Source: an uncultured Flavobacteriaceae bacterium (lineage in GTDB: Bacteria; Bacteroidota; Bacteroidia; Flavobacteriales; Flavobacteriaceae). Taken from it: a stretch of 64,000 nt of DNA. Below the pieces are notes generated by a model. It was not told the origin of the DNA. It searched no databases and saw nothing but the letters and a program-made list of their open reading frames with translations. The position numbers and the translations under genes are program-made. Below are positions 15,820 to 50,204 of the stretch, in pieces (positions within the stretch are counted from its first letter, which is position 1; every line of letters begins with the position of its first letter). The stretch lies in NCBI GenBank assembly GCA_947497145.1, contig CANMFQ010000013.1, positions 1 through 64,000 of the forward strand. The letters are read 5' to 3'.

Positions 15820-16335
15820 ATGAAAAGTAGCTTTATATTCTTATTCGTTGTTTTTAGTGTCTGCGCACAAGAACCAGATGAATCATCGGTACGTTTATTA
15901 AGGTCTACCATAACCACCGTAGGCTCATCTTCTACTTCTTTTAATAATTATTACATAGCGCAAAGTATTGGTCAATCAGGAATAATAGGGAAAGTAGACG
16001 TAGACAAGACAACAGTACAACAAGGTTTTCTCTCAAGTATTATGTCTTTTGAAATAAATAATACTAGTGATGAATTAGTAAATGAAATCTTAGAATTCGT
16101 CGTATTCCCCAATCCATTTATTGACTATGTAGAAGTTAGTTTTTCAAAAAAAATACAGCAAGATATTCTTATTGATATAACCGATGATACTGGTAGACTA
16201 ATTAAAAGCAAAAAATATTTACCAACGAACAAAATTAAAATCCCTATCGGTGATATTAGTGTAGGCCTTTATTTTTTGCAGATTAAAACGGGTGAAAATG
16301 TGGAAATCAAAAAAATAATAAAAACAGATCATTAG
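15820..16335 (+). CDS. Secreted protein with T9SS type A sorting domain
   Basis: The 171-residue protein has a signal peptide (1-16, MKSSFIFLFVVFSVCA), a short middle part (STSFNNYYIAQSIGQSGIIG) and a C-terminal T9SS type A sorting domain (about 88-170). That domain begins VFPNPFIDYVEV and ends with a GLYFLQIKTGENVEIKKIIK-type strand pair. Such domains direct export through the type IX secretion system and attachment at the cell surface. It is the first gene of a same-strand cluster (15820-24549). The tight spacing to the next gene (1 bp) suggests co-transcription. It may be an anchor or accessory for the fibre protein; this is inference. Confidence 0.75.
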   Translation: MKSSFIFLFVVFSVCAQEPDESSVRLLRSTITTVGSSSTSFNNYYIAQSIGQSGIIGKVDVDKTTVQQGFLSSIMSFEINNTSDELVNEILEFVVFPNPFIDYVEVSFSKKIQQDILIDITDDTGRLIKSKKYLPTNKIKIPIGDISVGLYFLQIKTGENVEIKKIIKTDH

Positions 16336-16336
16336 C

Positions 16337-16999
16337 GTGCTAAAAAACGAAATTACATACTTAATTTTATTTTTTTGCCTCGAATTTGGTTTTTTGCTCA
16401 AGGTAAATGCACAACAAATTTATGTAGAAATAGGTGCTGCAAATGCCATTTTTAAGGATTATCAAAATAGTAAAGGCGAAAATACACTAGAAGCCTATTC
16501 CTCAAAGCCACTTAGGCCATTTTTAGCATGTGGTTATCGGTTAAATATTTTGAACAACAAAGTACACCTTAACATCGGCTTAAATGAAAGTAGTTATCGC
16601 ATTGAAACGGCCTTTTTATTAAACAATACAACAATACCTACAACCTATAAATTATCGTATTTAGGTTTACTAGTAGGAACAAATATTTCCATCATCAAAT
16701 GGAAAGATATTATGTTTCAACTACATGCTCATTTATCTAATGATTGGTTAACCTCTGCAGTTAATGAGTATGAAAATCACAAAATAGATTTATATAGGCA
16801 ACTAGATAAAAGAATATTAAGGTATCACGCAGGGCTTGCAATGCAATATAATGTATCTAATGATATCGATATTTTTTTAAAATATACAATTGCAAATAGC
16901 TTTAAACTGCAAAGCCAAGATTTTCAAAATGGTGAGCATTACTCTTTACTAACTAAATCTTTATCCATAGGGTTATTATACACAATAAGGAGATGGTGA
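16337..16999 (+). CDS. Probable outer-membrane beta-barrel protein
   Basis: The gene starts with GTG one base after the previous stop. The 220-residue product begins with a signal peptide (about 1-25, ending KVNAQQ). The mature part has alternating short beta-strands separated by polar turns, with aromatic ends (IYVEIGAANAIFKDY, FLACGYRLNILNNKVHLNIGLNESSYRI, SLSIGLLYTIRRW). That is the style of small outer-membrane barrels and PorP/SprF-like partners, though I cannot match it to PorP/SprF specifically. It overlaps the next gene by 7 bp, so translation is coupled within the fibre cluster. Confidence 0.6.
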   Translation: MLKNEITYLILFFCLEFGFLLKVNAQQIYVEIGAANAIFKDYQNSKGENTLEAYSSKPLRPFLACGYRLNILNNKVHLNIGLNESSYRIETAFLLNNTTIPTTYKLSYLGLLVGTNISIIKWKDIMFQLHAHLSNDWLTSAVNEYENHKIDLYRQLDKRILRYHAGLAMQYNVSNDIDIFLKYTIANSFKLQSQDFQNGEHYSLLTKSLSIGLLYTIRRW

Positions 17000-18126
17000 A
17001 AACGAATAAAATAACAGTAGCATTTTTGTTTTTTATACTAAGCACAGTAGCATATAGTCAAACTCCTGGGTTTAACTATCAGGCTTTAATTTTAGATAAT
17101 ACTGAAGTTGAAATACCGGGCGAAGCTATAACATCGAAAAGACCTCTAGCCCTAGAGAATGTTATAATGCGCTTTTCTATAGAAAGTACCAATACCATTT
17201 TATACACAGAAACTCATGATGTAGTTACTGATGAAAATGGTATGATCTCGGTTATTGTAGGCGAAGGAGTGCCAGTCACCTCTACGTTTGATCAAATAGC
17301 ATGGGATGGCGAGTTAAAATACTTAAATGTAGAAATAAATATAGTACGCAATAATGAAGGGTTTACCCTTTTAGATTCACAAAAAATAGTATACCTACCA
17401 CAAGAAATTCCTGAGAATACTACTAAGATCGTATATAGTTTAAACGATTTAACCGAACCTCATGATATTGGAGAAATAGTATTGGTAAAAAATTACAATG
17501 CTACTAACCAAGCTGTATTCGTTATTTGGAATGGAGAAGAATGGTTGGCTGTTTCTGGTGATTCTAGTCCAATTATCGAAAATGCCATTTTGCAGGTGGC
17601 TAATGCTGTAGATAGAGATAACCAATTTCCTAATCCGGAAATAGGAGATCAAGTATGGAATCGCAGCTGCTCTTGTGTACAAGTATTTAACGGTACATCT
17701 TGGATATCAACTAGTAATATTAGCGCATTAAATGGGGTAACCAAAAATGGAGATATTATTAAACTAGGAGGCGCATTAACAGAGCCTACTGAAATTACAA
17801 CCAGCCCAAACAATACACTGGCCATAAAAAACCTTGAAGAATCAAATTTAGAAGAAGATTTATTTGTAAAAATAGATGCAACAACAGGAGTTCTTAAACG
17901 CAGTACTGTATCCTCAGTAGTAAAGCAAGAAGAAGCAATAATATATGCTACTAATTTTCAACTCAATTTCACCACTCCTTTACCTATCACAGACCCAAAA
18001 AAAATTGATGTTTATAGAAATGGCGTTAAAATAGATTTTACCGTACTAAATAATTCTACCATTAAATTAGAACAAGACGCTATTTGCTATGAAAATGATA
18101 AAATAAGAATCGTACAATTATACTAA
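16993..18126 (+). CDS. Secreted protein of the fibre cluster, unknown function
   Basis: The 377-residue protein has a signal peptide (about 1-22, ending VAYSQ). It opens with TPGFNYQALILDN, a start common among Bacteroidota surface proteins that carry tail-fibre-like modules. Around 195-240 is a DxWN...VQVFNGTSWI segment (VGDQVWNRSCSCVQVFNGTSW) resembling the label-and-value repeats of the downstream fibre protein. The C-terminus (about 330-377) has KKIDVYRNGVKIDF...NDKIRIVQLY. This is shared in outline with the next gene (YQKVAVYRNGAKLRAN...GDIFEVQWIH), suggesting a common C-terminal domain. Function is unknown; a structural role at the surface is likely from context. Confidence 0.6.
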   Translation: MVKTNKITVAFLFFILSTVAYSQTPGFNYQALILDNTEVEIPGEAITSKRPLALENVIMRFSIESTNTILYTETHDVVTDENGMISVIVGEGVPVTSTFDQIAWDGELKYLNVEINIVRNNEGFTLLDSQKIVYLPQEIPENTTKIVYSLNDLTEPHDIGEIVLVKNYNATNQAVFVIWNGEEWLAVSGDSSPIIENAILQVANAVDRDNQFPNPEIGDQVWNRSCSCVQVFNGTSWISTSNISALNGVTKNGDIIKLGGALTEPTEITTSPNNTLAIKNLEESNLEEDLFVKIDATTGVLKRSTVSSVVKQEEAIIYATNFQLNFTTPLPITDPKKIDVYRNGVKIDFTVLNNSTIKLEQDAICYENDKIRIVQLY

Positions 18127-18144
18127 CATTTAAAACCAACAGAA

Positions 18145-18876
18145 ATGAAAACAAAAAAAATAAATTATTTAAAAACACTTTTACTAGGGCTGCTTATTAC
18201 GGCAGGAACTACGATACAAGCACAGCAAATAACAGGTGATGCTGGAAAAATTGAAGATGCAAGTGTATCTCAAGTACTTAATGGAACCGTTAGGGTTATT
18301 GATAATAAAGGAACAAAAAAATACCTTCAAGTAAAAAATGGATTAACGCTTTTAACAGATACTACACCAGATGGTGGAATTATATCTACTTGGCAGTTAG
18401 GGGGTACCTTAACAAACAATACATATATTGATGCTACAGGCAAAATTTTCTCATTAGATGGACTAAAGCTAACTCCTTCTAGTGCGGCAGCTTCTACTAA
18501 TGCAACAGATCAATCTGTGGGTACAAATGGTACAACGCTGGGTTCTACAGGAACAGCAGCTACAGGAACAGGTTGGACTGTTTTAATTAGAGACGAAGCT
18601 ACGGGAGAAATAAGTAAAATGCTAGTTTCTAACCTCATAGAAGGTGGGCATATGGAAGTTACAGCCGCTGCAAATGCCACAGTACCTACTATAGCAGATG
18701 CTTCTATACCAGGAGAGTATCAAAAAGTTGCTGTCTATAGAAACGGAGCAAAATTAAGAGCGAATGTCGATTATTCTGTTGCTGCAGGAGCCGTTACTTT
18801 AACTCCTGTTTCTGCTGCCCCAAATGATTGGAGCATTTATTCTGGTGATATTTTTGAAGTCCAATGGATTCACTAA
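18145..18876 (+). CDS. Secreted protein of the fibre cluster, unknown function
   Basis: The 243-residue protein has a signal peptide (about 1-27, LLLGLLITAGTTIQAQQ). An early GTVRVIDNKGTKKYLQVKNG segment matches the start of the mature fibre protein (VRVIDNKGTIKKIKNNQ). A Thr/Ala/Gly-rich middle follows, and the C-terminal VYRNG domain is shared with the upstream gene. It therefore bridges the other two proteins of the locus by sequence and may be an adaptor or minor fibre subunit. It is 18 bp from the previous gene, same strand. Confidence 0.6.
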   Translation: MKTKKINYLKTLLLGLLITAGTTIQAQQITGDAGKIEDASVSQVLNGTVRVIDNKGTKKYLQVKNGLTLLTDTTPDGGIISTWQLGGTLTNNTYIDATGKIFSLDGLKLTPSSAAASTNATDQSVGTNGTTLGSTGTAATGTGWTVLIRDEATGEISKMLVSNLIEGGHMEVTAAANATVPTIADASIPGEYQKVAVYRNGAKLRANVDYSVAAGAVTLTPVSAAPNDWSIYSGDIFEVQWIH

Positions 18877-19043
18877 AATCAGCTTTTTCACTCCTCCCTA
18901 AATCTTATAATTAACTACTAAAAAAGTGCTATGCAAAGCTATTGAAAATAAAAAAATTGTATCAATTACGAAACAAACAACATAGTAAACAGTATAAAAT
19001 CAAGTAATTACATACAATTTTCAACATAAATTACGAGAGTCTG

Positions 19044-19850
19044 TTGAATATACTCAAACAAATACTAAAGACAAATCTATTTTCCTATCAGCGGAATAAG
19101 TACGTTTTGGTAGCTGTGGAGGGTATGGTCATCAATTACTCGTCTAAATATCTTACTATGGATAGTAACGCTAACCTTTATAAAACACATACAGAGCATC
19201 CCTATTGCGATATTGTACAAAGTGAATACCGCAAAAGAGGTCGTAAGTTGTTCTTGTATCTTGAAAAAACAAGCGTAAACCGTTCATTTTTTTTAAAGAT
19301 ATATCAAGATCATTTCGGCATAGATAGTACGCCCTTCGCATATTGGAAGCTGACTAAATGCCGGCAAAATAAATTTTACCACATCGCTACGTACGGCGTA
19401 CCAAACAAAGATTACGGCACTGTGCAGTCTGCTATGTATTATCCGTATACACCTCATACAAACGGTACTGTAGGTGCTATTTTTAAGCGTCTAGCCTTAA
19501 GCCCTACTTCACCACAAGGGCTACAGTATTGCAAGGATAAAAAAACACCGCAAAAAAACTACACCCAAAGTGGTGATTGGGATTATCCCTCTGGCAAACA
19601 TCTCTTAAACCCATTCCAAACAACAAGTACAAAACTAAATACACCACCTACGAATAAAAAAAAATATAGAAAACACCCCTATATCGACCCAAAACCCCAA
19701 AAAAAAATAGAGACACTATTTTCTCGATGGTGCACCCTGTTCATAATAAAAAATTACACGAAATACGTTGAGGGTTTAAAAACAAGATTAGTATCCAAAA
19801 TAGCAACACGAGTCATAGTTCAGTTTAGTCACAAAGTTGTCTTTAATTGA
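19044..19850 (+). mobile_element. Diverged IS982-family transposase ORF
   Basis: The 268-residue reading frame aligns by eye to IS982-type transposases throughout. It has an N-terminal YLTMDSNANLYKTH block, YRKRGRKLFLYLEK, a first acidic residue in GIDSTPF, NKDYGTVQSAMYY, the ALSPTSPQGLQYCKD region, a second Asp in SGDWDYPS, the RKHPYIDPKPQKKIETLFS block containing the Glu, and IIKNYTKYVEGLKTRLVSKIA at the end. The D-D-E residues appear retained, but many family-conserved positions are altered and it is slightly short. The start is a TTG with no clear upstream signals and I see no terminal inverted repeats. It is probably inactive. It separates the fibre gene from its upstream partners. Confidence 0.65.
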
Positions 19851-19908
19851 AATACAAACAACATCATAATAAGTACTATTTAAAATATAACGAGTTATAA
19901 AAATTAAG

Positions 19909-22900
19909 ATGAATAACTATATAAAACTAAGCATTCTACTATTTGTTTTATCCTTTAGCAGTGTACTACATGCACAAGAGGTTAGGGTAATAGACAATAA
20001 AGGAACCATTAAAAAAATTAAAAACAATCAGGTAAAAACGGCTAGTACCGCCCCTACTAATCCATTAGAAGGCGATGTATGGTTTGACACCACAACTAAC
20101 ATTTCTAAAATTTACGATGGTACACAATGGTTGGTTATCGATTTAGACAGGGTCACTACAAGTACTACAGCACCTACCGCTCCTGTAATTGGCGATGTTT
20201 GGATTGACGATAGCACCTCTCCAAATAGCAACAAAATTTGGGATGGCGCACAATGGAACACCCTAGGGAATGGCAGTAGTTGGACTCTGAATGGAAATGC
20301 AGGTACAGACCCTGCGGTAAATTTCATAGGCACTACTGATGCTAAAGATTTGGTAATAAAAGCAAATAATACCGAAGAACTTAGAGTTAAAGCAAGTAAC
20401 GGACAAGTTTTAATCAATCAAGCCACTTCGAATAGTGATTTTCCATTAATGATAAAAGCAAATGGTAGTCTACATAATCTTTTAGCATTTCAAAATACTA
20501 CTAACGACACAAAATGGCATGTAAATCTTTCTGGAAATGGTTTAAACTTTGCAGAAACCAATGTTAATAATTATAGGCTTTTTCTTAAAGAAGGTGGTGA
20601 TGTAGGTGTTGGTACAGCAACCCCTACTGCAAAATTGCATATTAACGATGCTACTGACTTTGACCTTGCAGCAGGCAGAAGACCACCTTTACGGGTAGGT
20701 ACCACCACTGGCCTTCATTTAGATATTGATGGTAATGAGATTGGAGCTTACGATAACAATACATTTGCTCAGTTACGTATTAATGCTTCTGGTTCTACAT
20801 CTAATACACTAATAAACCCTGACGGTGGTAATGTAGGTATAGGTACAAATAACGCTACAGAAAAATTAGAAATAACTAATGGAGGTATTCAATTGAATGA
20901 ACAATATGGAATAGGTTTTAGAGGAGAAAGACCTTTAAATAGTAGTGTATTAAATGATGGTGCTAAAATATATTACCATGGCGATTATTTTGGTACAGAT
21001 GTAGACGCTCTTGTTATTGAAAAAACAGATAAGGATGGTGATGATGCTGATGGCGGTATTGTTTTTACCGAGAAAGGACAGGATAATATTCGTGAAACAC
21101 AAATGGTTATTCGAAATTCTAAAGTAGGTGTTAACTTAAGTGCCCCAACAACCACATTAGATGTAAACGGTCAAGTGCGTATTCGTGACGGTAATCCAGG
21201 GGCAGGAAAAGTACTAACCTCAGATGCAACAGGTTTAGCAACATGGCAAGCAGTACCTAGCAGTGCAGACAATTTAGGAAACCACACAGCAACACAAAAT
21301 CTTAACTTATCTACCTTTAAATTAGTAGGCAACAATGGAAGCAATGGAATTTCTATAGCGAATAATGGTAATGTAGGGATTGGTACAAATTCGCTAAGTG
21401 CTAATTTACATGTTTTCAACTCTTCAGGAGACACAAAGGCCATTTTTGGAAAAGAAAATACAGATGCCGTACATCTAATAAGCTCTGGAACAAGTTCTTA
21501 CATAGGCTTAGGAACAATTAACACAGGTGCAGGTTCTAGAGGGCTATTTGAATATGATAGGACTAGTGGAAAATTACATTATTTAAATGGAGTATCTGGC
21601 ACAGAAACTGAGAGATTAACAATACACCCAACAGGTAATGTTGGTATTGGCACAACAAATCCGGCAACAACTTTAGATGTTAATGGACAGGTAAAAATTT
21701 CAGGAGGAGCTCCAGCAGCAGGTAAAGTACTAACCTCAGATGCAGCAGGCCTAGCAACATGGCAAGCAGTACCTAGCAGTGCAGATAACTTAGGGAACCA
21801 CACCGCAACACAAAACCTTAATTTAGCCACACATAAATTAGTGGGTAATAATGGTAGCTCTGGAATTTCTATTGCTAATAATGGTAATGTAGGTATAAAT
21901 ACTTCTACACCTGAAACAACCTTAGATGTTAATGGGAATTCAAATACGAATAGTTTAGCAATTTCTGGCAATGGTGTATCGGGTGGTTTTCCTGCTGGAA
22001 ATCATTGGCGTTTTGGACAAAGTTCAACTGATAATGACCTGCTAATAGGAAGAAATGGTAACAGCTCAGTTATTACTATCAAGAGAGCTACTAATAACAC
22101 CCTAATCAATACAGGTAAAGTAGGTATTGGCACAACAACACCAAGTGATAGACTTACCGTTCATAATGGTGCTATTATAAATTCTTCTAACAATAGCATT
22201 GTTGGAATTGGTTTTAAGCCAGATTTTAGTACTAACAACAGTGCCAATGAAAATCAAATAAGGTTTATGTCTACTGGTCTTGGTGATGGTAGTAATGGCT
22301 ATAAATTTTCATGGCGTAATGATGATGGATCACAACGAGTAGACCCAATATTTTTTCATAAAAACGGGAATATTGGAATAAACACCAATTTACCTTCTGC
22401 TACTCTAGATGTTTTCGGCCAAATAAAAATTTCTGGAGGAACACCAGGAGCAGGAAAAGTACTAACCTCTGATGCAGCAGGCCTAGCAACATGGCAAGCA
22501 GTACCAAGTAGTGCAGACAACTTAGGGAATCATACAGCAACACAAAACCTTAATTTAGCTACCCATAAATTAGTGGGTAACGGAGGAACTTCAGGAATCG
22601 CTATAAATAATTCGGGGAAAGTAGAAATTACTTCTACCAGTAATAATTTACTAAAATTAAAAAACATCAATAGTGCGGATCCTGTAGTTGCTGCTTCATA
22701 TATTGAGTTTTTAACCTCAAATAATACCAGAACAGGCTATGTAGGTGATGGTAGTTCAGGATCTAATGCAATGAGCTTTAATGCTGAACAAGGAAATGCT
22801 AATATTCTTGCAAAAGATGACATCACATTTCGTACTAATGGTTCACAAAAAGCTATAATAAAAGCAAATGGTAGAATGGGTATTGGTACAACAAACCCAG

Positions 22901-24549
22901 GTGCCTTTTTACATGTAGCTAGTGATATTAATGCAGGACCAGGTGTTGTTCCTCCATTTAAAATAGGGCCAAATGCTGGTATACATCTTGATTTTGATGG
23001 TAATGAAATTTTAGCTTTTAATGGTGGTGTTTTCTCTGATTTATTTCTTACTTCAGCAAAAACCATTATTAATAAAGATGGTGGTAATGTTGGTATTGGA
23101 TTAGTTGATCCAGATACAAAATTAACAGTTAAATCAAATACCTTAGGAACTAATGTTGGAGCAGAATCAAGAATGATACGTGGTATAACGCAAACTTCAT
23201 CATCTAATGAGAGTAAATTAGATTTCAAAACGAGAAGACATATAGCAGGGAATAACTGGGCCGGAACGTCTTCTAGAATACAAAGAAAAGTAGATAATAC
23301 AAACCAAGCTTTTATTGATTTTGGAATTCAAGGAATAAGTGGAAATACTGGATTAGGTTTTGGTACAGGTAGCAACAATAATACAACAAGAATGGTTATT
23401 AGTGAAAATGGTAATGTTGGTATTGGAACAACTTCCCCTGGTGCTCCTCTAGAGATTGCTGCTACAAATCATAAATTATTAAAATTAAAAGATACCGGTA
23501 GCTCAGATCCTGTATCTGCCATAGCATTTATAGAGTTTACCACTTCTAATGATACTAGAATGGGATATATAGGAGATGGAAATGGCGGGAATGATACATT
23601 TGAATTTAGTGCTGCTCAAGGAGATGCTCGTATTGCCGCTAAAGATGACATTAGATTTGCTACTAATAATACACAAAAAGCTATTATAAAAGCAAATGGT
23701 AATGTAGGTATTGGTACAAATAACCCTACAGAAAAATTAGAAATAGCTAATGGCGGCATACAATTGAACGGGAATTATGGTATAGGATTTAATCAGGAGG
23801 AACCATTAAATAGCGACCCTTTAGGTGATGGCGCTAAAATATATTATGACTCTTCATATTTTGGAGGCAGTACAGACGCACTAGTCATAGAAAAAACAGA
23901 TATTCTTCAACCCAATCCAGATGGGGGAATTGTTTTTGCTAAAAAAGGTGGAGACAAAGCTAGAGTAACACAAATGGTTATTCGTGGTGACGGTAATGTT
24001 GGTATCGGTGTAGAAACTCCATCCGCTAAACTAGAAGTTTGTGGTAACGCAAAAATAGTAGGGCGAATTTACGCCAATACCAGCAGCTTATCGGCAGGCT
24101 TAACTTGTTCTTCTGATGAGCGTTTAAAAAAGAATATTCTTAATTACAACAATGCCCTGCAAACAATTAGCCTTTTAAAAGGAAAACAATACAACTGGCG
24201 TAACAAAAAATTTACAAACAGAGGTTTTGATGCACGTATTAAATATGGGTTTATTGCTCAGGAAGTAGAAAAGGTTTTACCTAGTTTAGTATATGAAGAC
24301 GAAAAAGGGTTTAAATCTGTAGATTATATTCAGGTTATCCCTATTCTTACCAATGCTATTCAAGAACAACAAACGGAATTGGCACAAATAAAAGAACAAA
24401 ACAAACAGTTACTAGCAAAACTAGAAGCTATAGAAACAGAAAATGGGGCTATAAAAACGCAACTGTCTAGCTTAGCTGAAATGAAAGATGAACTACAAGA
24501 AATTAAAGCATTACTAAGTAGTGACTGGTCAGAAATACCAAAAAAATAA
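19909..24549 (+). CDS. Giant modular fibre protein with S74 intramolecular-chaperone domain
   Basis: The 1546-residue protein has a signal peptide (1-23, ending VLHAQE), a short VRVIDNKGTIKK block, and two GDVWFD/GDVWID..KIYDGTQW label repeats. A very long tail-fibre-like region (about 120-1390) follows, in which modules each end in NGNVGIGT. The C-terminal peptidase S74 domain (about 1400-1500) starts SSDERLKKNILNYNNALQTI and includes YGFIAQEVEKVLPSLV. A trimeric-style coiled coil (QEQQTELAQIKEQNKQLLAKLEAIE) closes the protein. S74 domains assist trimer folding of phage tail spikes and then cleave themselves off. Here a secreted, trimeric surface fibre is likely. There is no T9SS domain of its own; the 15820 gene may supply that. 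The last ten codons fall inside dispersed repeat copy B. Confidence 0.85.
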   Translation: MNNYIKLSILLFVLSFSSVLHAQEVRVIDNKGTIKKIKNNQVKTASTAPTNPLEGDVWFDTTTNISKIYDGTQWLVIDLDRVTTSTTAPTAPVIGDVWIDDSTSPNSNKIWDGAQWNTLGNGSSWTLNGNAGTDPAVNFIGTTDAKDLVIKANNTEELRVKASNGQVLINQATSNSDFPLMIKANGSLHNLLAFQNTTNDTKWHVNLSGNGLNFAETNVNNYRLFLKEGGDVGVGTATPTAKLHINDATDFDLAAGRRPPLRVGTTTGLHLDIDGNEIGAYDNNTFAQLRINASGSTSNTLINPDGGNVGIGTNNATEKLEITNGGIQLNEQYGIGFRGERPLNSSVLNDGAKIYYHGDYFGTDVDALVIEKTDKDGDDADGGIVFTEKGQDNIRETQMVIRNSKVGVNLSAPTTTLDVNGQVRIRDGNPGAGKVLTSDATGLATWQAVPSSADNLGNHTATQNLNLSTFKLVGNNGSNGISIANNGNVGIGTNSLSANLHVFNSSGDTKAIFGKENTDAVHLISSGTSSYIGLGTINTGAGSRGLFEYDRTSGKLHYLNGVSGTETERLTIHPTGNVGIGTTNPATTLDVNGQVKISGGAPAAGKVLTSDAAGLATWQAVPSSADNLGNHTATQNLNLATHKLVGNNGSSGISIANNGNVGINTSTPETTLDVNGNSNTNSLAISGNGVSGGFPAGNHWRFGQSSTDNDLLIGRNGNSSVITIKRATNNTLINTGKVGIGTTTPSDRLTVHNGAIINSSNNSIVGIGFKPDFSTNNSANENQIRFMSTGLGDGSNGYKFSWRNDDGSQRVDPIFFHKNGNIGINTNLPSATLDVFGQIKISGGTPGAGKVLTSDAAGLATWQAVPSSADNLGNHTATQNLNLATHKLVGNGGTSGIAINNSGKVEITSTSNNLLKLKNINSADPVVAASYIEFLTSNNTRTGYVGDGSSGSNAMSFNAEQGNANILAKDDITFRTNGSQKAIIKANGRMGIGTTNPGAFLHVASDINAGPGVVPPFKIGPNAGIHLDFDGNEILAFNGGVFSDLFLTSAKTIINKDGGNVGIGLVDPDTKLTVKSNTLGTNVGAESRMIRGITQTSSSNESKLDFKTRRHIAGNNWAGTSSRIQRKVDNTNQAFIDFGIQGISGNTGLGFGTGSNNNTTRMVISENGNVGIGTTSPGAPLEIAATNHKLLKLKDTGSSDPVSAIAFIEFTTSNDTRMGYIGDGNGGNDTFEFSAAQGDARIAAKDDIRFATNNTQKAIIKANGNVGIGTNNPTEKLEIANGGIQLNGNYGIGFNQEEPLNSDPLGDGAKIYYDSSYFGGSTDALVIEKTDILQPNPDGGIVFAKKGGDKARVTQMVIRGDGNVGIGVETPSAKLEVCGNAKIVGRIYANTSSLSAGLTCSSDERLKKNILNYNNALQTISLLKGKQYNWRNKKFTNRGFDARIKYGFIAQEVEKVLPSLVYEDEKGFKSVDYIQVIPILTNAIQEQQTELAQIKEQNKQLLAKLEAIETENGAIKTQLSSLAEMKDELQEIKALLSSDWSEIPKK
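21148..22630 (+). repeat. Three intragenic repeat units of about 235 bp in the fibre gene
   Basis: Units at about 21148-21386, 21664-21906 and 22402-22630 encode TTLDVNGQV...GAGKVLTSDA.GLATWQAVPSSADN and then LGNHTATQNLNL...KLVGN. The nucleotide sequence is nearly identical in the middle (AGTACTAACCTCAGATGCA). This suggests recent duplication or ongoing recombination. Other module pairs in the same gene are more diverged: 20640-20850 with 22905-23100, 20856-21130 with 23733-24010, and 22640-22890 with 23470-23710. Confidence 0.85.
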
Positions 24550-24669: not shown

Positions 24670-25668
24670 CTACCCTTTCATATATTTACCAGGATTATTC
24701 TCAAAGCTAACTTTACAGCCGTCACAGCAAAAATAAACCTGCTCCCCTTCGTAAACCACAATATGCTTAGGATTCTTTTTTGACACGGGCACATTACAAA
24801 CAGGGTTGATATAATATTCTTCTGCAAAGGTGTTGGTTGCAGCTGTTTCAGCAGGCGTACTTTCTGCCTCCGTATTTGTTATTTCTACCGTAGTGGCCTT
24901 TCTAAAATGGGCGATAATATCAGCCAAAATACTGATAGCTACTTCACTTGCCAGCTTTGCGTTAATATCCAATCCCACCGGACTCCGCAGCTGATCAATA
25001 CGTTGTTCGCTCACCCCTTCCTTGAGTAAATAAGCTTTAATGTCTGTTGCTTTTTTGACACTAGCTACAAAACCAACATAACCCACAGCGGTTTGCAGGG
25101 CTTTTTTTACTGACAATGCATCATCTTCACCCTGAGTGGTAACAATAATATAGGTGTTTTGTAAATTTTTAAAGGGCGTAAAGTCTACAATATCTGCAAC
25201 GCTATTTGCTGTAGGAAACATTTGCACATCTGCAGCTGTTGCCATTACAGCAACTCTAAAATCAGCCGCTGCCGCCATTTGCACCAATTTTCGGGCAATA
25301 TTACTCTTACCTACAACAATCAATTCTGGTTGTGGTATTACGGGCTCTATAAGTACTTCTAAAGTTCCTTTACTTTGACATGACATAACGTATTCTTTAT
25401 AAGTTGCTGTTTGGCGTGTGCCGCCTTCTGGTGAAATTCTCACTCGTCGGTAACGTTTGGTTTTAATAACATCAAGCGCTTCTTTTATGACAATACCACG
25501 TACACAACCACCACCAATCCACCCGATAAGTTCACCTGTTTCTAAAATAATTGCCTTATCACCAACCTTACCAGAGCTTGGTGCTATACGATCTACCACT
25601 TGAGCAATGGCAAAATTGCTTCCTTGACCCAAGTAGGTTTCTATTTTTAATGCGAGTTCATTAAACAT
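24670..25668 (-). CDS. XdhC/CoxI-family molybdoenzyme maturation factor with C-terminal YHS domain
   Basis: XdhC-type proteins bind the molybdenum cofactor and help sulfurate and insert it into xanthine-dehydrogenase-family enzymes. This 332-residue protein has the XdhC/CoxI N-terminal domain (FAIAQVVDRIAPSSGKVGDKAIILETGELIGWIGGGCVRG), a central Rossmann-like domain (about 115-240, ending QLRSPVGLDINAKLASEVAISILADI), and an added YHS metal-binding domain (about 283-332, INPVCNVPVS...VYFCCDGCKVSFENNPGKY). A YHS tail carries Cys residues that bind metals; delivering copper to the Mo/Cu centre is a tempting but unproven role. It overlaps coxE by 8 bp and is the last gene of the cox operon. Confidence 0.85.
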   Translation of the reverse strand: MFNELALKIETYLGQGSNFAIAQVVDRIAPSSGKVGDKAIILETGELIGWIGGGCVRGIVIKEALDVIKTKRYRRVRISPEGGTRQTATYKEYVMSCQSKGTLEVLIEPVIPQPELIVVGKSNIARKLVQMAAAADFRVAVMATAADVQMFPTANSVADIVDFTPFKNLQNTYIIVTTQGEDDALSVKKALQTAVGYVGFVASVKKATDIKAYLLKEGVSEQRIDQLRSPVGLDINAKLASEVAISILADIIAHFRKATTVEITNTEAESTPAETAATNTFAEEYYINPVCNVPVSKKNPKHIVVYEGEQVYFCCDGCKVSFENNPGKYMKG

Positions 25669-26794
25669 TCATCAATAATTTTTCTAATTTTAGTAAACTG
25701 TCTAAGTTATGCGCCGATTCAAATGCGTCTAAATGTGGCATAACATTTACAATGCCTTTTTGTATGGGCTGATACCCTTCCATCCCCTTCAAAGGATTTA
25801 ACCATACCAGTGTTTTACATTTATTTTTAATAGTGCGTACCGCTTCTTTAAGCTCGGTAACATTTCCCGTTTCAAGCCCGTCACTTAATATAACTACAAC
25901 ATGTTTTTGGCTCAAAAATTTGCTTCCATACGTGTTCAAAAATTCTGTTAACGATTCGCCAATCTTTGTTCCGCTTGACCATGAGTGTACATTACTACCA
26001 ATCTGCTTCAAAATCAACTGCTCATTATTTTGTCGCAACAAGGGGGTAATATGCGTTAAATGTGTACTAAAGGTAAAGAACTCTAAACTTTTAAAATACT
26101 TTTTCAATACCATTACATACCGCAAAAGATAGTAGCTATAGGTGTCCATAGAACCACTCACATCGAGTATAAACACCACTTTACGCTTTTCTTTGCGTTT
26201 CTTTTTGTGTGCTAATTTTAAGAGTAAACCTCCCTTTTCTATACCGTGTCGTATGGTTTTTCTTATTGCTATCTTTCCCTTATTCGCTGTTTTTAAACGT
26301 CGTTTAACACGCATACTCATTTGATGAAAAAGAGCTTCCGCCAATTCCTCCAAACGTTCTTTATCGGTAATAGCTACTTTTGAAAAATCAGTTACCCGCA
26401 AACGGCTATTTTCATTAGCGCCTTTGGTTTCCTTGGCTTCAATGTTGCTTTCCTTTTTAGGAATATTAAATTTAGCTCCCAAAAAGATTACTGTAGCGGT
26501 ATCTGGTTCTTTTTTAAGTTGCTGTAACTGCTTTTTTCGTTGTTCTAATTTCGACTCATAATAACGACTCCAAAAACGATTAAACATTTCATCAAAACGT
26601 TCAAAATGCTCTCGACGAGTACAAAAAATAGCTTTTAAACTATGGTGAAATAATCTACGATCAAGTGCGTAACCTCGCTTAGCCACTTCAAAAGCATCAT
26701 ATGTTTCCTGTGGCCCCAAAACAAAGTGTCGCTCTCTACAATATATTGTAAAGTCGATAATACGTTCTTTAAATGTTTTGGTTACTTCTTGCAT
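25661..26794 (-). CDS. coxE: CoxE-like VWA-domain protein
   Basis: CoxE works with the MoxR-type ATPase CoxD to mature the Cu-S-Mo centre of CO dehydrogenase. The 377-residue protein has a CoxE-type N-terminal region (about 1-190), with KLEQRKKQLQQLKK and a basic segment, and a C-terminal VWA domain (about 200-360). The MIDAS motif FILDVSGSM, SSGTKIGESL and VILSDGLETGN are all present, so metal binding should be intact. It lies 33 bp downstream of coxD and overlaps the xdhC-like gene. Confidence 0.88.
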   Translation of the reverse strand: MQEVTKTFKERIIDFTIYCRERHFVLGPQETYDAFEVAKRGYALDRRLFHHSLKAIFCTRREHFERFDEMFNRFWSRYYESKLEQRKKQLQQLKKEPDTATVIFLGAKFNIPKKESNIEAKETKGANENSRLRVTDFSKVAITDKERLEELAEALFHQMSMRVKRRLKTANKGKIAIRKTIRHGIEKGGLLLKLAHKKKRKEKRKVVFILDVSGSMDTYSYYLLRYVMVLKKYFKSLEFFTFSTHLTHITPLLRQNNEQLILKQIGSNVHSWSSGTKIGESLTEFLNTYGSKFLSQKHVVVILSDGLETGNVTELKEAVRTIKNKCKTLVWLNPLKGMEGYQPIQKGIVNVMPHLDAFESAHNLDSLLKLEKLLMNV

Positions 26795-26827
26795 AAAAGG
26801 AGAATTACTAACACACTAGACAGGGGT

Positions 26828-27688
26828 TTACAAAAATTCTTGAACCGTTTTATTACGCACAAATGCAACATCATCTTTATGCTTTAACACACTACCAATC
26901 GTTGTTTTCACAATCGCATCGGTAATATGTGTTTGATTCATTAGTAACAGTGTTTTTGCCCAGTCTAACGATTCAGCAATGCCTGGTGGTTTATGGAGGT
27001 TTGATTTTCGAAGATTGTGAATAAAAGTTACTATTTGCGCTGCAAGTTGCTGATCAATATGCGGCAGCTTTTTAGCTATAATATCAATTTCCTTGGTTTT
27101 TGAAGGAAAATCTACCCAATGATACAAACAGCGTCTACGCAAGGCATCGCTAAGTTCTCGGGTTCTGTTAGATGTTAAAATAACCAAAGGCTTTGAAACT
27201 GCTTTTATGGTACCCAATTCTGGGATGCTTATTTGAAAATCAGATAGTAATTCTAGTAGATACGCTTCAAATTCTTCATCAGCACGATCAATTTCATCTA
27301 TTAATAAAACTACAGGCTTTTGGGCGCTTATTGCCTGTAATAAGGGGCGTTTAAGCACGTAGTCCATGCCAAAAATTTGATTTCCCAACTGTTTTTTATC
27401 CTTTTCTTGCTCAAATAGTTTGATGTGGAGCAACTGCTTCTGATAGTTCCATTCATAAATGGTGGTACTAACATCTAAACCTTCATAGCATTGCAAGCGA
27501 ATAAGGGATGTATGTAAATGCTCAGCCAAGGTTTTTGCCAACATCGTTTTACCCACACCCGGATTACCTTCTAAAAGCAATGGTTTTTCTAAATTTTTTA
27601 AAAGAAAAACAGCTGTTGCCAACTCGTCATTTAAAATATAATCATGCTCATAAAAATCTTCTATAAGCCTTGCTATTTCTGTATTCAA
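26828..27688 (-). CDS. coxD: MoxR-type AAA+ ATPase (CoxD)
   Basis: The 286-residue AAA+ protein has Walker A GNPGVGKTML (about residues 40-49), Walker B VVLLIDEIDRADEEFEAYLLELL, sensor 1 VILTSNRTRELSDALRRRC, and a MoxR C-terminal lid (IAESLDWAKTLLL). CoxD remodels apo-CO dehydrogenase so that sulfur and copper can be added to the Mo site. It is paired with CoxE immediately downstream. A hairpin separates it from coxG, so its expression may be set below that of the structural genes. Confidence 0.9.
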   Translation of the reverse strand: MNTEIARLIEDFYEHDYILNDELATAVFLLKNLEKPLLLEGNPGVGKTMLAKTLAEHLHTSLIRLQCYEGLDVSTTIYEWNYQKQLLHIKLFEQEKDKKQLGNQIFGMDYVLKRPLLQAISAQKPVVLLIDEIDRADEEFEAYLLELLSDFQISIPELGTIKAVSKPLVILTSNRTRELSDALRRRCLYHWVDFPSKTKEIDIIAKKLPHIDQQLAAQIVTFIHNLRKSNLHKPPGIAESLDWAKTLLLMNQTHITDAIVKTTIGSVLKHKDDVAFVRNKTVQEFL

Positions 27689-27702
27689 TAGTGTTAATTT
27701 AG

Positions 27703-27733
27703 AAAAGCTATGCCCAAGCTGCGCATAGCTTTT
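27703..27733 (-). terminator. Hairpin between coxG and coxD (attenuator or weak terminator)
   Basis: A perfect 11-bp inverted repeat AAAAGCTATGC / GCATAGCTTTT (27703-27713 and 27723-27733) has a 9-nt loop. On the cox transcript it ends in only four U residues, so it may be a partial terminator or an RNA-processing site. It could reduce maturation-gene expression relative to coxMSLG. Confidence 0.45.
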
Positions 27734-27759
27734 GTTAAAACCGTAATGTACATCAAAAA

Positions 27760-28230
27760 CTAAGCGGCCGCCTCGGCAGCAGCTAGTTTCTTTGAAAAAT
27801 TAGAAACAAATTGCTTAAACAACTGATTTGAAACTGTTGTTATTAGTCGTGAACCAAATTGTGCTATTTTTCCATTGACCGTAACATCCATAACAGCATC
27901 TAATTTTACACCGCCTTCATCGCGATCACTAAGGTTAATCGTCATCATCATTTCAGCATTTCCATTTCCCTTGGAATCAACGCCATCACCCGCAATAATA
28001 ATTTTCCTATTTTCAAGATCAATTTCGTTGTAATAAATATCGGCATCATATTTCACCCCCATAGGGCCAAATTTCATTCCCACCTTCCCTTTGTAATGAT
28101 TATCAGCTACTTTTTCATCAATAGAAACCCCAGGTACACAATCCATTATTTTTTCAGGATCTATAAGGTGTTCCCACACCAATTCAGTGCTTTGCGGCAC
28201 TTCAAAAGATTTATCTAATTGTGTTTTCAT
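27760..28230 (-). CDS. coxG: CoxG-like SRPBCC-fold protein
   Basis: CoxG is associated with membrane recruitment of aerobic CO dehydrogenase. The track starts at 28257, but the second Met at 28230 (MKTQLDKSFEVPQSTELVWEHL) is the usual family start. The resulting 156-residue protein has the SRPBCC/CoxG fold signatures DPEKIMDCVPGVS, YKGKVGMKFGPMGVKYDAD and VTVNGKIAQFGSRLI, ending in an amphipathic helix. It lacks the long membrane-anchor tail found in some CoxG proteins. It lies between coxL and coxD in the cluster. Confidence 0.88.
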   Translation of the reverse strand: MKTQLDKSFEVPQSTELVWEHLIDPEKIMDCVPGVSIDEKVADNHYKGKVGMKFGPMGVKYDADIYYNEIDLENRKIIIAGDGVDSKGNGNAEMMMTINLSDRDEGGVKLDAVMDVTVNGKIAQFGSRLITTVSNQLFKQFVSNFSKKLAAAEAAA

Positions 28231-28391
28231 GTATTTTTTGTTTTTATTATGGCTCATTCTAGAAAAAACAATGACAATAATATGCCAATGTTTGTTTGTA
28301 TATAGCTGCTAACTTAAAGTTCGGGTATTTAAAGCTAGCAGGTATATCGATATCATAGAATAATCAAGCTCAATTTTAAAATATATTCATT

Positions 28392-30752
28392 TTAATTTTT
28401 GTGTGCCTGTATGGCTTCCCAAACTTTGGCAGGTGTAATAGGAATATCTAAATGCTTAATGCCCAACGGTGATAAGGCATCAATAATAGCATTGGCTATT
28501 GCTGGCGGTGCGCCCACTGTTGGCGATTCTGCCACTCCCTTAGCTCCTAGTGGATGATGCGGTGATGGTGTTATGGTATGACCAGTTTCCCAATGTGGCG
28601 ATTCTACAGCCGTAGGCACAAGATAATCCATTAAAGTACCATTTAAAACATTTCCTTCATCATCATATTCAATACCTTCATACATAGCCGGAGCGATACC
28701 TTGGGTAAGTCCGCCATGTACTTGACCTTCAACAATCATAGGGTTTATTATATTACCACAATCATCAATAGCCACAAAGCGTTTAACATCGATAGCCCCA
28801 GTTTCCTCATCCACCTCAACTACACAAATATAAGCTCCATTTGGAAAGGTCAAATTTGGTGGATCATAATAATGCGTAGCTTCAAAACCAGGCTCTAATC
28901 CTGGCGGAATATTGGTATACGCAGCGAAAGCTACATCTTGTATCGTTTTTGATTTCTCCGGAGCTCCTTTCACAAAGTACTTTCCTACCTCCCACTCGAT
29001 ATCTTCTTCACTTACCTCTAATAGGTGTGCTGCTATTTTCTTGCCTTTATCACGTAATTTTCGAGCCGCTATTGCAGCTGCTGCCCCTGCTGTGGGAGTA
29101 CTTCTACTCGCATAAGTTCCTAAGCCGTAAGGTGCGGTATCTGTATCGCCTTCGTCTATTTCAATATCGGTATACGGAATTCCTAATTCTTCAGCTAGAA
29201 TCTGCGCATAGGTAGTTTCATGCCCTTGTCCTTGTGATTTAGTCCCAAAACGTGCCAATGCTTTTCCTGTAGGATGCACTCTTATTTCAGCACTATCAAA
29301 CATAGCTATACCCAAAATATCAAAATCTTTAGAAGGACCAGCACCCACAACTTCGGTAAAGGTACAAATACCGATACCCATCAGTTTTCCTTGTGCTCGT
29401 TTCTCGGCTTGCTCTTTTTTATACTTGTCATAACCAATCATATCCATAGCCTTCTCAAGGGTCTGCTTGTAATCACCACTATCATAACTCCATCCTAAAG
29501 GCGAAGCATACGGAAATTGTTCTTTCTTGATAAAGTTTTCAAAGCGCAACTGTGCAGGATCCTTACCTATTTCGGCTGCCAATTTATCGACCATACGCTC
29601 AATGGCATGCACCGCTTCTGTCACCCTAAAAGAGCAACGATAAGCAACTCCCCCCGGAGCTTTATTGGTATACACAGCATCTAGCTCTGCAAAGGCATGC
29701 TCGTAATCATAAGAGCCAGTACAAATAGAAAACATTCCCGTAGGATACTTTGACGGGTTTGCTGACGAATCGGTATACCCATGATCGGCTAACGTAGACA
29801 CCTTAAAGGCTTGTATTTTTCCGTCTTTGGTCGCTGCTAATTCACAATCCATGTGATAATCTCGTGCAAAACCGTTTACTAAATTTTCTGAACGATCTTC
29901 TATCCATTTTACAGGTTTTCCAATTAAGAAAGTAGCTGCAATGGCCACAACATAAGAAGGATAAACGGGTACTTTTCCACCAAATCCACCGCCAATATCT
30001 GGCGCAATAACTCTAATTTTTTCTTCAGATAATCCTACGTGACCTGCTACCAAAGCAACAACCGTACGAATAGCATGTGGTGCCTGAGTGGTCAAATAAA
30101 CCACCAATTTTTCGGTATCCTTGTCATAAGAAGCAACACAACCACAGGTTTCAATAGAAGCTACATGTATTCGAGGTAGATGAATACGCTCTTTTACAAC
30201 AACATCTGCATTGGCGATTACCTCATCTGTTTTTTCACGATCACCGCGCTCCCAATGGTAAATTTTATTGTCTTTTTGTCCTTCCTTATCGGGGCGTAAA
30301 AGTGGGGCATCTTCATCTAAAGCTTTAAAGGGATCAACAATTGCTGGCATAGGTTCATAATCTACTTCAACAGCTTCTGCCCCATCTACTGCGATATAAC
30401 GATCTGTAGCAATAACAGCACATACTTCTTGTGACTGGTGCATAACCGTATCTGTAGGCAATACCATTTGCGTATCTGACAATAAGGTAGGCATCCAATG
30501 TAAATTAAACTCTTTTAAATCATAACCTGTGATTACCGCCAATACGCCCGGAATAGCTAGTGCCTTTTCCTTATTAATACTTTTTATTTTTGCATATGCA
30601 TACGGGCTACGTACCATAACCATGGTCAATTGCCCTGGTAGTTTTACATCATCGACATAATTGCCTTTGCCGTGTAAAAACCGTGCATCTTCTTTTCTTT
30701 TTACAGAGTGACCCATTCCGCCTACCGCTGCTGATGTTTTACATTTAAACAT
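28392..30752 (-). CDS. coxL: Aerobic CO dehydrogenase large (molybdopterin) subunit, form I
   Basis: CoxL carries the Mo/Cu active site that oxidises CO to CO2 with water. The 786-residue protein has the normal layout: an a/b-hammerhead N-terminal domain (about 15-130) and then molybdopterin-binding domains with IGGGFGGKVPVYP. The active-site loop reads VAYRCSFR with Cys at residue 373. AYxCSFR is the signature of form I (true CO-oxidising) enzymes; form II and other xanthine-dehydrogenase relatives have AYxGAGR or similar. Near the C-terminus, GAKGVAESPT carries the catalytic Glu. It follows coxS by 18 bp in the order M-S-L. Among flavobacteria this enzyme would permit CO use as an energy supplement. 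Confidence 0.95.
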   Translation of the reverse strand: MFKCKTSAAVGGMGHSVKRKEDARFLHGKGNYVDDVKLPGQLTMVMVRSPYAYAKIKSINKEKALAIPGVLAVITGYDLKEFNLHWMPTLLSDTQMVLPTDTVMHQSQEVCAVIATDRYIAVDGAEAVEVDYEPMPAIVDPFKALDEDAPLLRPDKEGQKDNKIYHWERGDREKTDEVIANADVVVKERIHLPRIHVASIETCGCVASYDKDTEKLVVYLTTQAPHAIRTVVALVAGHVGLSEEKIRVIAPDIGGGFGGKVPVYPSYVVAIAATFLIGKPVKWIEDRSENLVNGFARDYHMDCELAATKDGKIQAFKVSTLADHGYTDSSANPSKYPTGMFSICTGSYDYEHAFAELDAVYTNKAPGGVAYRCSFRVTEAVHAIERMVDKLAAEIGKDPAQLRFENFIKKEQFPYASPLGWSYDSGDYKQTLEKAMDMIGYDKYKKEQAEKRAQGKLMGIGICTFTEVVGAGPSKDFDILGIAMFDSAEIRVHPTGKALARFGTKSQGQGHETTYAQILAEELGIPYTDIEIDEGDTDTAPYGLGTYASRSTPTAGAAAAIAARKLRDKGKKIAAHLLEVSEEDIEWEVGKYFVKGAPEKSKTIQDVAFAAYTNIPPGLEPGFEATHYYDPPNLTFPNGAYICVVEVDEETGAIDVKRFVAIDDCGNIINPMIVEGQVHGGLTQGIAPAMYEGIEYDDEGNVLNGTLMDYLVPTAVESPHWETGHTITPSPHHPLGAKGVAESPTVGAPPAIANAIIDALSPLGIKHLDIPITPAKVWEAIQAHKN

Positions 30753-30770
30753 AATTCTTAATTTATGAGG

Positions 30771-31259
30771 TTAGACTGATTCTGATTCGTTCTGCATTTC
30801 TTTTGCTGCTTGCTGTATCGATTTTACGATATTATTGTAACCGGTACACCTACAAAGATTTCCTGAAATACCCCATCGAATCTCTTCTTCAGTAGGGTTG
30901 GGGTTATTTTTCAACAAATCAACAGAACGTAAAATCATTCCTGGAGTACAAAAACCACAATGTAAACCATGTTGGTCATGAAAAGCTTTTTGTAGGGGAT
31001 GGTTTGTACCGTCTGCCGCCAAGCCTTCAATAGTGGTAATTTCTGCCCCATCTGCACGCACCGCCAAATAGGTGCATGATTTTATAGACTGCCCGTTTAA
31101 TAGAATGGTACAAGCCCCACAATTGGACGTATCACACCCAATATGGGTACCTGTTAAGTCTAAATTTTCTCGTATAAAATGTACTAGGAGCAGGCGTGAA
31201 TCTACCTCGGCAGTTACCTGTTCTCCATTTATTGTCATTGTTATTGTATGTTTTGCCAT
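30771..31259 (-). CDS. coxS: CO dehydrogenase small (2Fe-2S) subunit
   Basis: This 162-residue subunit transfers electrons from the Mo site to FAD. The N-terminal plant-type ferredoxin domain has [18 protein letters not shown] (four-Cys cluster with the later Cys in KSCTYLA). The C-terminal 2Fe-2S domain has CGFCTPGMI and [13 protein letters not shown]. All eight cluster Cys residues are visible. It lies between coxM and coxL with short gaps of 12 and 18 bp. Confidence 0.96.
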
Positions 31260-31271
31260 GTTGTTCTATTT

Positions 31272-32141
31272 TTAGTGTTGAGCGCGTTCAATTGCTAAAC
31301 GAATCATACGCTGGGTAATGGTATTTAAAATCGATCGCTTATAGGCCTCAGACCCTCGCAAATCTGAAGTGGGCTCAGAATCTTCACTTGCAATAGTTCC
31401 TACCTGCGCTATAAGGTCATCAGTTATCTTTTTGCCTTTTAATACCGCTTCACCCCGATCCAAACGCATAGGAGCAGCACTTACATTGGTAAGACCAATA
31501 CCAATTTCTTGGCAAATACCTGAGTCATCTAATACTACATGTACAGCAACACCAGCTGTAGCATAATCACCAACTTTTCGCTCTACTTTATGATAAGCAC
31601 CTCCACTTCCCTTTTTCTTTTTTGGCAATTGAATTTCAACCAACACATCAGAAGGCTCTAGCGCGGTCATATAAAACCCATGAAAAAAATCATCAATTGG
31701 TATTACTTTTTGTCCTTCTGTACCTTCTGCAATAATTGTAGCTCTCATGGCAAGCATTAAAGCTGGCTGATCGTTTGCTGCATCACCGTGCGCAATATTA
31801 CCCCCAATAGTACCTGCATTTCTTACTGAGGGATCAGCAGTAAGCTTAATGGCATCCATAAAAATAGGATAATCACGTCTAAGCAGTGTATTGTACTCCA
31901 TTTCAGATTGCGTGGTTAGCGCTCCTATTCTGAGTATTTCACCTTCTTCTTTAATGTAAGAAAGTCCATCAATTTTACTGATATCAATAATGTGTTCGGG
32001 GGTGGCAAAACGAAGTTTCATCATGGGCAACAAACTGTGGCCACCAGACATGTACTTCGCTTCCTCACCAAGTTTTTGAGACAAAGCAATAGCATCTTGA
32101 ACCGAGCTCGCCTTGTGATAGGTGAAATTAGCGGGAATCAT
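31272..32141 (-). CDS. coxM: CO dehydrogenase medium (FAD) subunit
   Basis: The 289-residue FAD-binding subunit of the molybdenum hydroxylase has the two FAD motifs: AKYMSGGHSLLPMMKLR (about residues 28-44) and the TIGGNIAHGD loop (about 110). The C-terminal CO_deh_flav_C domain starts with YHKVERKVGDYATAGVAV. The family length is about 285-290. It is the first gene of the cox operon, 34 bp downstream of a candidate promoter. A partial homologue lies at the right edge of the window. Confidence 0.95.
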   Translation of the reverse strand: MIPANFTYHKASSVQDAIALSQKLGEEAKYMSGGHSLLPMMKLRFATPEHIIDISKIDGLSYIKEEGEILRIGALTTQSEMEYNTLLRRDYPIFMDAIKLTADPSVRNAGTIGGNIAHGDAANDQPALMLAMRATIIAEGTEGQKVIPIDDFFHGFYMTALEPSDVLVEIQLPKKKKGSGGAYHKVERKVGDYATAGVAVHVVLDDSGICQEIGIGLTNVSAAPMRLDRGEAVLKGKKITDDLIAQVGTIASEDSEPTSDLRGSEAYKRSILNTITQRMIRLAIERAQH

Positions 32142-40398: not shown

Positions 40399-40677
40399 AT
40401 TAATATAGTTTAGCATCAATTACACAATAAACAAAATTACATAATCACCTCACTGTCTGTACATTTAATCATATTAAATTATGATTAAGAACTCATCAAG
40501 ACATGTTCTTTCACCTGCTAATTATCCATTTTGCACCCCAATTTTGTCATTTTTGAGTTCCGTAGTCATATTACGGAACAAAAAAATGCCTTCTCCCCGG
40601 CACTAAAACGATAATTATTGGTTCCAAACAAAAAGTCAAGACGAGTTGGACAATAAAAATGATGTATCAATTTTTAA

Positions 40678-50185: not shown

Positions 50186-50204
50186 TTTTAAAAATTATTC
50201 ATAT

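Follow-up and report, generated by a model that had tools for sequence, protein, structure and literature searches.

The mosaic adhesive trimer (MAT) fibres of Bdellovibrio bacteriovorus consist of a fixed N-terminal domain placed after the signal peptide, a repetitive shaft, and exchangeable tips, some of which are of the S74 type and some not (Caulton et al. 2024, PMC10769870). Predatory bacteria recognise their prey with the help of these fibres, whose attachment to the cell was stated to be an open question by their discoverers (PMC10769870). Individual features of the locus described here are also found, or have possible counterparts, in the S74 phage tail fibres (the long tail fibre of phage S16, 6f45, and the K1F endosialidase), in fibre proteins from T7-like phages and their relatives (PDB 9efk, 8es4 and 8vbx), and in T9SS-dependent adhesins such as SprB and RemA.

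The window analysed is the whole stretch of 64,000 nt, and the feature under study lies at positions 15820 to 24549 on its + strand. This locus is a conserved and unnamed Bacteroidota fibre operon, in which the proposed base and coupler are constant, the tips can be exchanged and, in most complete operons, a T9SS-sorted partner is present. It resembles the MAT fibres in that the tips are exchangeable and the shaft of its fibre is similar to theirs in sequence; the N-domain of one of its proteins (linkA) shows a similarity to theirs that stays below the curated cut-off. Unlike in these single chains, the base and the tip are on separate polypeptides, which would be joined via the product of a third gene (linkB), and, while the surface partner of MAT fibres is unknown, the present locus comprises a T9SS-sorted partner and a barrel. 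As in S74 phage tail fibres, an SDxxxK-bearing S74 domain follows a repetitive shaft in the C-terminal part of the protein; unlike these, the gene is chromosomal, has an apparent signal peptide, and belongs to a T9SS-linked operon with no phage genes around. The fold of T7-like phage fibre proteins may resemble that of a domain found here (the VYRNG domain), which, in contrast to the phage situation, sits at the C-terminal end of two linker proteins. Finally, SprB, RemA and the proteins of this locus have in common that they are Bacteroidota surface proteins tied to the T9SS, as predicted from sequence in our case, but here the sorting domain is borne by a separate small protein, and linkA, linkB and the fibre are without it.

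MAT proteins are recognised by a conserved beta-rich N-domain of about 130 aa following the signal peptide. The linkA protein of the window matched the corresponding model (NF053851, Bdello_MAT_N) with an E-value of 4.3e-5 and 23.4 bits, under the curated cut-off of 60, and 9 of 30 linkA members matched it as well. The N-domain is carried by linkA and the S74 tip by a separate gene, instead of both being on one polypeptide; exchangeable tips on a repetitive shaft were found, as judged from the tally of tips given below and from the matches of the fibre shaft, by sequence, to the MAT structures 8oml and 8ond. Because the set is split over three genes and the N-domain match is below cut-off, we did not file the locus as MAT; by analogy, it may work like a MAT or an S74 fibre. 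In another genome of the same genus (locus L107), a single-chain protein of 1162 aa has a MAT-like N-domain and an S74-type C-terminal end, and the gene immediately before its own is small and, by its sequence, apparently encodes a T9SS type A protein.

Gene content of the locus

The region had been described in a preliminary description as five same-strand secreted genes with shared sequence links, and five intact ORFs were recovered at the coordinates given there (Table 1). All five products are predicted to be secreted, since each has, as judged by eye, an N-terminal hydrophobic stretch ending in AQ, SQ or similar. The statement that a T9SS domain occurs in the first gene only was borne out: its product qualifies as a type A T9SS cargo (PF18962; 49.2 bits for a cut-off of 27; E = 6.7e-13), and no C-terminal sorting domain was matched in linkA, linkB or the fibre with Pfam and NCBIfam. 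Likewise, S74 is restricted to the last of the five genes (PF13884; 62.3 bits for a cut-off of 22; E = 5.4e-17), where the domain is complete. The Ser/Lys dyad on which the preliminary reading had been made to depend is present by sequence: the motif SDERLK, starting at residue 1402 of the fibre, fits SDxxxK and aligns with SDRRIK of the phage fibre 6f45. The fibre also matches phage tail-fibre PHROGs. It contains three exact copies of WQAVPSSADNLGNHTATQNLNL, at residues 446, 618 and 862, a sign of recent duplication within the fibre.

Table 1. Features of the fibre locus (positions are those of the window)
Feature	Position	Strand	Profile
Small T9SS type A protein, 171 aa	15820..16335	+	PF18962
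Putative small outer-membrane beta-barrel, 220 aa	16337..16999	+	PF13568 (weak)
linkA, 377 aa: MAT-like N-domain, middle modules, C-terminal VYRNG domain	16993..18126	+	
linkB, 243 aa: VIDNKGT N-end and VYRNG C-domain	18145..18876	+	
Decayed insertion sequence, outside the fibre system; transposase remnant ORF 19044-19850	18915..19900 (boundaries approximate)	+	
Fibre, 1546 aa: VIDNKGT N-end, VGIGT-type repeats, S74 tip domain, C-terminal coiled coil	19909..24549	+	
S74 domain within the fibre gene	24112..24294	+	PF13884 (genome search)

The barrel had been called as such in the preliminary description, and the call is supported by homologues, one of which (L050) matches PF13568 with an E-value of 6.6e-5 while another (L086) is fused to an OmpA domain (E = 2.9e-15); in the window itself the match is weak (E = 0.023). 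The OmpA fusion supports a role of the barrel as a membrane anchor, which we regard as probable on the basis of sequence; the barrel looks too small to act as an export pore for the fibre. The product of the first gene is the probable carrier or anchor of the set.

The five genes do not form one tight run in this genome, because linkB and the fibre gene are about 1 kb apart, with a decayed insertion sequence between them. This element shares 64% identity with a further copy elsewhere in the genome (G000:C11:468-1381), whose ORF is a DDE_Tnp_1 transposase (E = 5.4e-16), and it stops only a few bases 5' of the start codon of the fibre. ORF 19044-19850 was considered as a sixth gene and ruled out, being the decayed transposase. 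A scan for sigma-70 promoters returned sites no commoner than in shuffled sequences, with a consensus that does not cover Bacteroidota promoters.

Distribution, end motifs and exchangeable parts

linkB was found in 9 of the 120 relatives searched and in 12 genomes of an evenly drawn sample of the family (n = 301), while a species-wide genome collection yielded 113 stretches with linkB relatives. Eighty of the latter were kept (L021 to L100), and the counts of motifs and gene order given below rest on 81 loci. The kept loci all belong to Bacteroidota, mostly Flavobacteriaceae, with a few from Weeksellaceae, Sphingobacteriaceae, Chitinophagaceae and Paludibacteraceae. linkA stands directly 5' of linkB, on the same strand and with short gaps, in 80 of the 81 loci. 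The motifs at the ends of the proteins follow a strict grammar: (i) the C-terminal [FY]RNG motif is present in 80/80 linkA and 80/81 linkB proteins, and in none of 77 next genes, (ii) the N-terminal VIDNKGT-type motif is absent from all 80 linkA proteins, present in all 81 linkB proteins (six as DNRGT), and present in nearly every complete next gene. The links first noticed in the window, namely VYRNG between 16993 and 18145 and VRVIDNKGT between 18145 and 19909, are exact, and with these counts they are not due to chance. The constant parts of the set are linkA, linkB and a fibre starting with VIDNKGT.

Two architectures were distinguished. Type I, which comprises most loci, consists of linkA, linkB and one or more fibres, after which comes a T9SS type B protein (CHU_C domain) of ~380 aa. 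Type II, to which the window belongs, begins with the small type A T9SS protein and the barrel, followed by linkA, linkB and the fibre. The preliminary description had made its reading depend on finding the five genes together elsewhere, and the same five-gene order with a VIDNKGT fibre occurs in eight further genomes (L037, L042, L044, L045, L050, L062, L076 and L093), the small T9SS-A gene standing first in all eight; the five genes thus hold as a set elsewhere, though parted in the window. Within the run scored, ~18 of 74 loci have no T9SS partner, in some cases owing to contig ends. A described system with this exact set had been said not to be known, and none was found in the part of the open-access literature that was searched. 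Beside some type I loci (L013, L015 and L016), a second set was seen, consisting of a protein of 1136 to 1347 aa with a VKIGDNPQ-like start and then its own protein with a type B-like C-terminal end.

The N-domain of linkA is associated with the type of anchor: MAT-like N-domains go with type A in 10 loci and with type B in none, whereas other N-domains go with type B in 45 loci and with type A in one. This sole exception (L045) is an artefact, as a frame break puts the MAT-like part in a separate ORF. The Fisher value for this pairing (p = 3e-10) ignores relatedness and is not to be read as a probability. The type B gene and the linkA N-domain are at opposite ends of the operon, the former past the fibre, so that adjacency alone is insufficient to explain the pairing; and since the type II label requires at least six changes on the linkB tree, one common origin of linkB does not account for it either.

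Among the eight loci of the same order, only L093 has an S74 tip. A Pfam scan of 91 fibre and neighbouring proteins identified S74 (n = 5), BclA_C (n = 5), YadA_head (n = 4), C1q (n = 3), CBM_5_12 (n = 2), Gp10_C (n = 2) and other tips. The view of the S74 fibre as the defining part of the set therefore had to be given up, because tips are exchanged freely between loci; moreover, among 301 genomes of the family, 85 encoded S74 proteins, and with such a frequency S74 alone is unremarkable. Several of the tip domains (among S74, C1q, BclA_C and YadA_head) are known from trimeric proteins.

AlphaFold2 modelled the VYRNG domain with a pLDDT of about 96 in linkA and about 97 in linkB, the remainder of linkB giving a low-confidence model. 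Foldseek placed fibre and tail proteins of phages LME-1, HRP29, PhiM1 and A4 among the best PDB matches of this domain (E = 0.004 to 0.06; probability near 1.0), in a list where unrelated proteins stand at similar E-values among the phage matches, and a search of a viral structure library gave phage tail proteins (best E = 2e-5). At the sequence level, one weak profile match of the linker to PDB 9efk (E = 0.0096) was obtained, similarity being otherwise negligible, and profiles of linkA and linkB against PDB sequences returned nothing convincing. The matched region of T7-like fibres attaches the fibre to the tail; this analogy suggests that the VYRNG domain may receive the N-terminal end of the next segment.

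The fibre had been termed phage-tail-derived. S74, and apparently also the VYRNG fold, are indeed like those of phage fibres, but no linkB homologue was found in the phage records and viral contigs searched; the term therefore fits single modules and not the whole set.

Proposed assembly and its alternatives

What was observed directly is how the genes are ordered, which modules stand at the protein ends, that tips are exchanged, and which linkA N-domain goes with which anchor. We favour, with moderate confidence, a reading in which three polypeptides and an anchoring module make up a trimeric adhesive fibre on the cell surface, similar to the MAT fibres of Bdellovibrio; that it forms trimers, docks in a given order, is exported by the route proposed, is displayed on the surface and serves adhesion is what we infer. 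In favour of this reading are the recurrent gene order, the end-motif grammar, the pairing of N-domain and anchor, the tip domains known from trimeric proteins, the phage-like VYRNG fold, the similarity of linkA to Bdello_MAT_N, the OmpA fusion of a barrel homologue, the single-chain version in L107 and the small T9SS-A genes upstream of MAT-N-type genes described below. linkA, proposed as the base from its modules, would take up the VIDNKGT N-terminal end of linkB in its C-terminal VYRNG domain, and linkB, the proposed coupler, would in turn take up that of the long fibre, with its repetitive, probably beta-helical shaft and swappable tip. The S74 chaperone would trimerise the tip and then cut itself off at Ser1402, the self-cleavage site proposed from the motif. 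The N-domain of linkA would fit one of two anchors, the T9SS-A protein with the barrel (as in the window) or the far-end T9SS-B protein (as in most other loci). In the former case, the T9SS protein and the barrel would hold the base of the fibre. The T9SS partner may ferry the base over the outer membrane, or may cap and hold it at the surface; linkA, linkB and the fibre, being without a sorting domain, would accordingly either travel together with this partner or be assembled outside with the partner as a cap. To our knowledge, Bdellovibrio has no T9SS; as MAT fibres are surface-exposed there, a T9SS would not be needed in principle for such fibres. If the fibre parts do travel with the T9SS partner, the T9SS would export proteins without a sorting signal. 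The locus is also a candidate answer, for Bacteroidota, to the question of MAT anchoring, offering both a conserved partner sorted by the T9SS and a barrel, one homologue of which bears OmpA, and its swappable couplers and tips suggest a modular Bacteroidota adhesion system that is unnamed in present annotation.

Several observations go against this favoured reading. From the results above, these are the modest PDB E-values of the VYRNG fold (0.004 to 0.06), the low-confidence model of linkB outside its C-domain, the loci in which no T9SS partner was seen, and the occurrence of surface MAT fibres in Bdellovibrio; to them are added the lack of coevolution at the junctions and a related site in genome G010, of the same genus. 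At that site (L108; G010:C1:244000-256000), an intact fibre orthologue of 1344 aa stands alone behind a decayed small T9SS gene, linkA and linkB being gone. Another linkA-linkB locus lies elsewhere in the same genome (L018), so that the lone tip may either act in trans or be in the process of being lost. For the proposed docking junctions, coevolution was evaluated in 65 loci and had to be rejected: linkB distances correlated neither with those of linkA nor with those of the fibre (~0.07), which decouples linkB from both neighbours, and its own two halves correlated weakly (0.16). linkB has apparently been exchanged between loci, or recombined, in line with the linkB tree; the choice of the loci by linkB similarity may add to the decoupling. 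The distances of the linkA C-domain and of the fibre N-terminal end, in contrast, showed a partial correlation of 0.67.

These data bear on an alternative that we consider unlikely, in which linkA, linkB and the fibre are separate, co-regulated and unjoined surface proteins drawn from one Bacteroidota pool of modules. linkA and linkB would then be short proteins occupying, or competing for, identical docking sites, and the fibre would be an adhesin in its own right. The separate evolution of linkB, the persistence of the G010 fibre without local partners and the single-chain fibre of L107 all speak for it. It accounts poorly, however, for a near-invariant gene order over 81 loci, for the strictness of the end-motif grammar, and for the correlation between the linkA C-domain and the fibre N-terminal end.

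Rather improbable, in our opinion, is that the locus is a decaying remnant whose operon was split by the insertion sequence, the fibre having ceased to be produced or to assemble with linkA and linkB. The position of the decayed element directly 5' of the fibre, and the G010 site with its decayed T9SS gene and missing middle genes, point in that direction; yet all five ORFs are intact in the window, the 4.6-kb fibre frame has stayed open although the insertion sequence has diverged considerably (64%), and the fibre frame of G010 is open too. Phage origin of the whole set was rejected, as no relative of linkB turned up in the phage records and viral contigs searched. That the set was captured from a phage as a tail-fibre cassette, or belongs to a tail-like particle, is largely refuted and very improbable: matches to phage tail-fibre families were obtained for S74 and for the repeat modules, and the VYRNG fold appears similar to that of phage fibre or tail proteins, but all parts have apparent signal peptides, a T9SS partner is in the operon, and genes for a tail, sheath or baseplate were not seen in the vicinity.

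Returning to the favoured reading of an anchored fibre, its anchoring module may have a wider counterpart. Among 30 loci encoding MAT-N-type genes in Flavobacteriaceae (L110 to L139), a small T9SS-A protein was seen by inspection directly upstream in 16. Pfam detected the sorting domain in 18 of 27 scanned proteins, one of them being the window's own. As eight genomes contained 10 to 110 T9SS type A domains each, a neighbour picked at random would be expected to carry one in ~1% of cases. Of the hints that the T9SS protein serves the base of the fibre, this pairing is the most general, and a T9SS-A gene upstream of single-chain MAT-N-type genes may be a general arrangement in Flavobacteriaceae. 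Only tentatively do we extend this to a general Bacteroidota way of mounting MAT-type fibres, in which a small upstream T9SS-sorted protein would carry or lock a base without a sorting domain, the present fibre being in addition divided over three genes with couplers and tips exchangeable between strains. If true, this would amount to hitchhiker secretion via the T9SS and would give a MAT-like fibre a named anchor.

Other genes in the window

Downstream of the fibre, the - strand carries an aerobic carbon monoxide dehydrogenase-like cluster (24670-32141) with XdhC-like, VWA, MoxR-like ATPase and CoxG-like accessory genes. Its large subunit (28392-30752) passes TIGR02416 (1214 bits for a cut-off of 991) and contains the motif AYRCSFR, which we take to mark form I CoxL. 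Further on, a 1368-aa protein encoded on the - strand (36313-40419) carries a type A domain of the T9SS and matches ExeM/NucH extracellular nucleases weakly, and a SusC/SusD-like pair on the + strand (46985-51959) is followed by a 1116-aa protein without an NCBIfam match.
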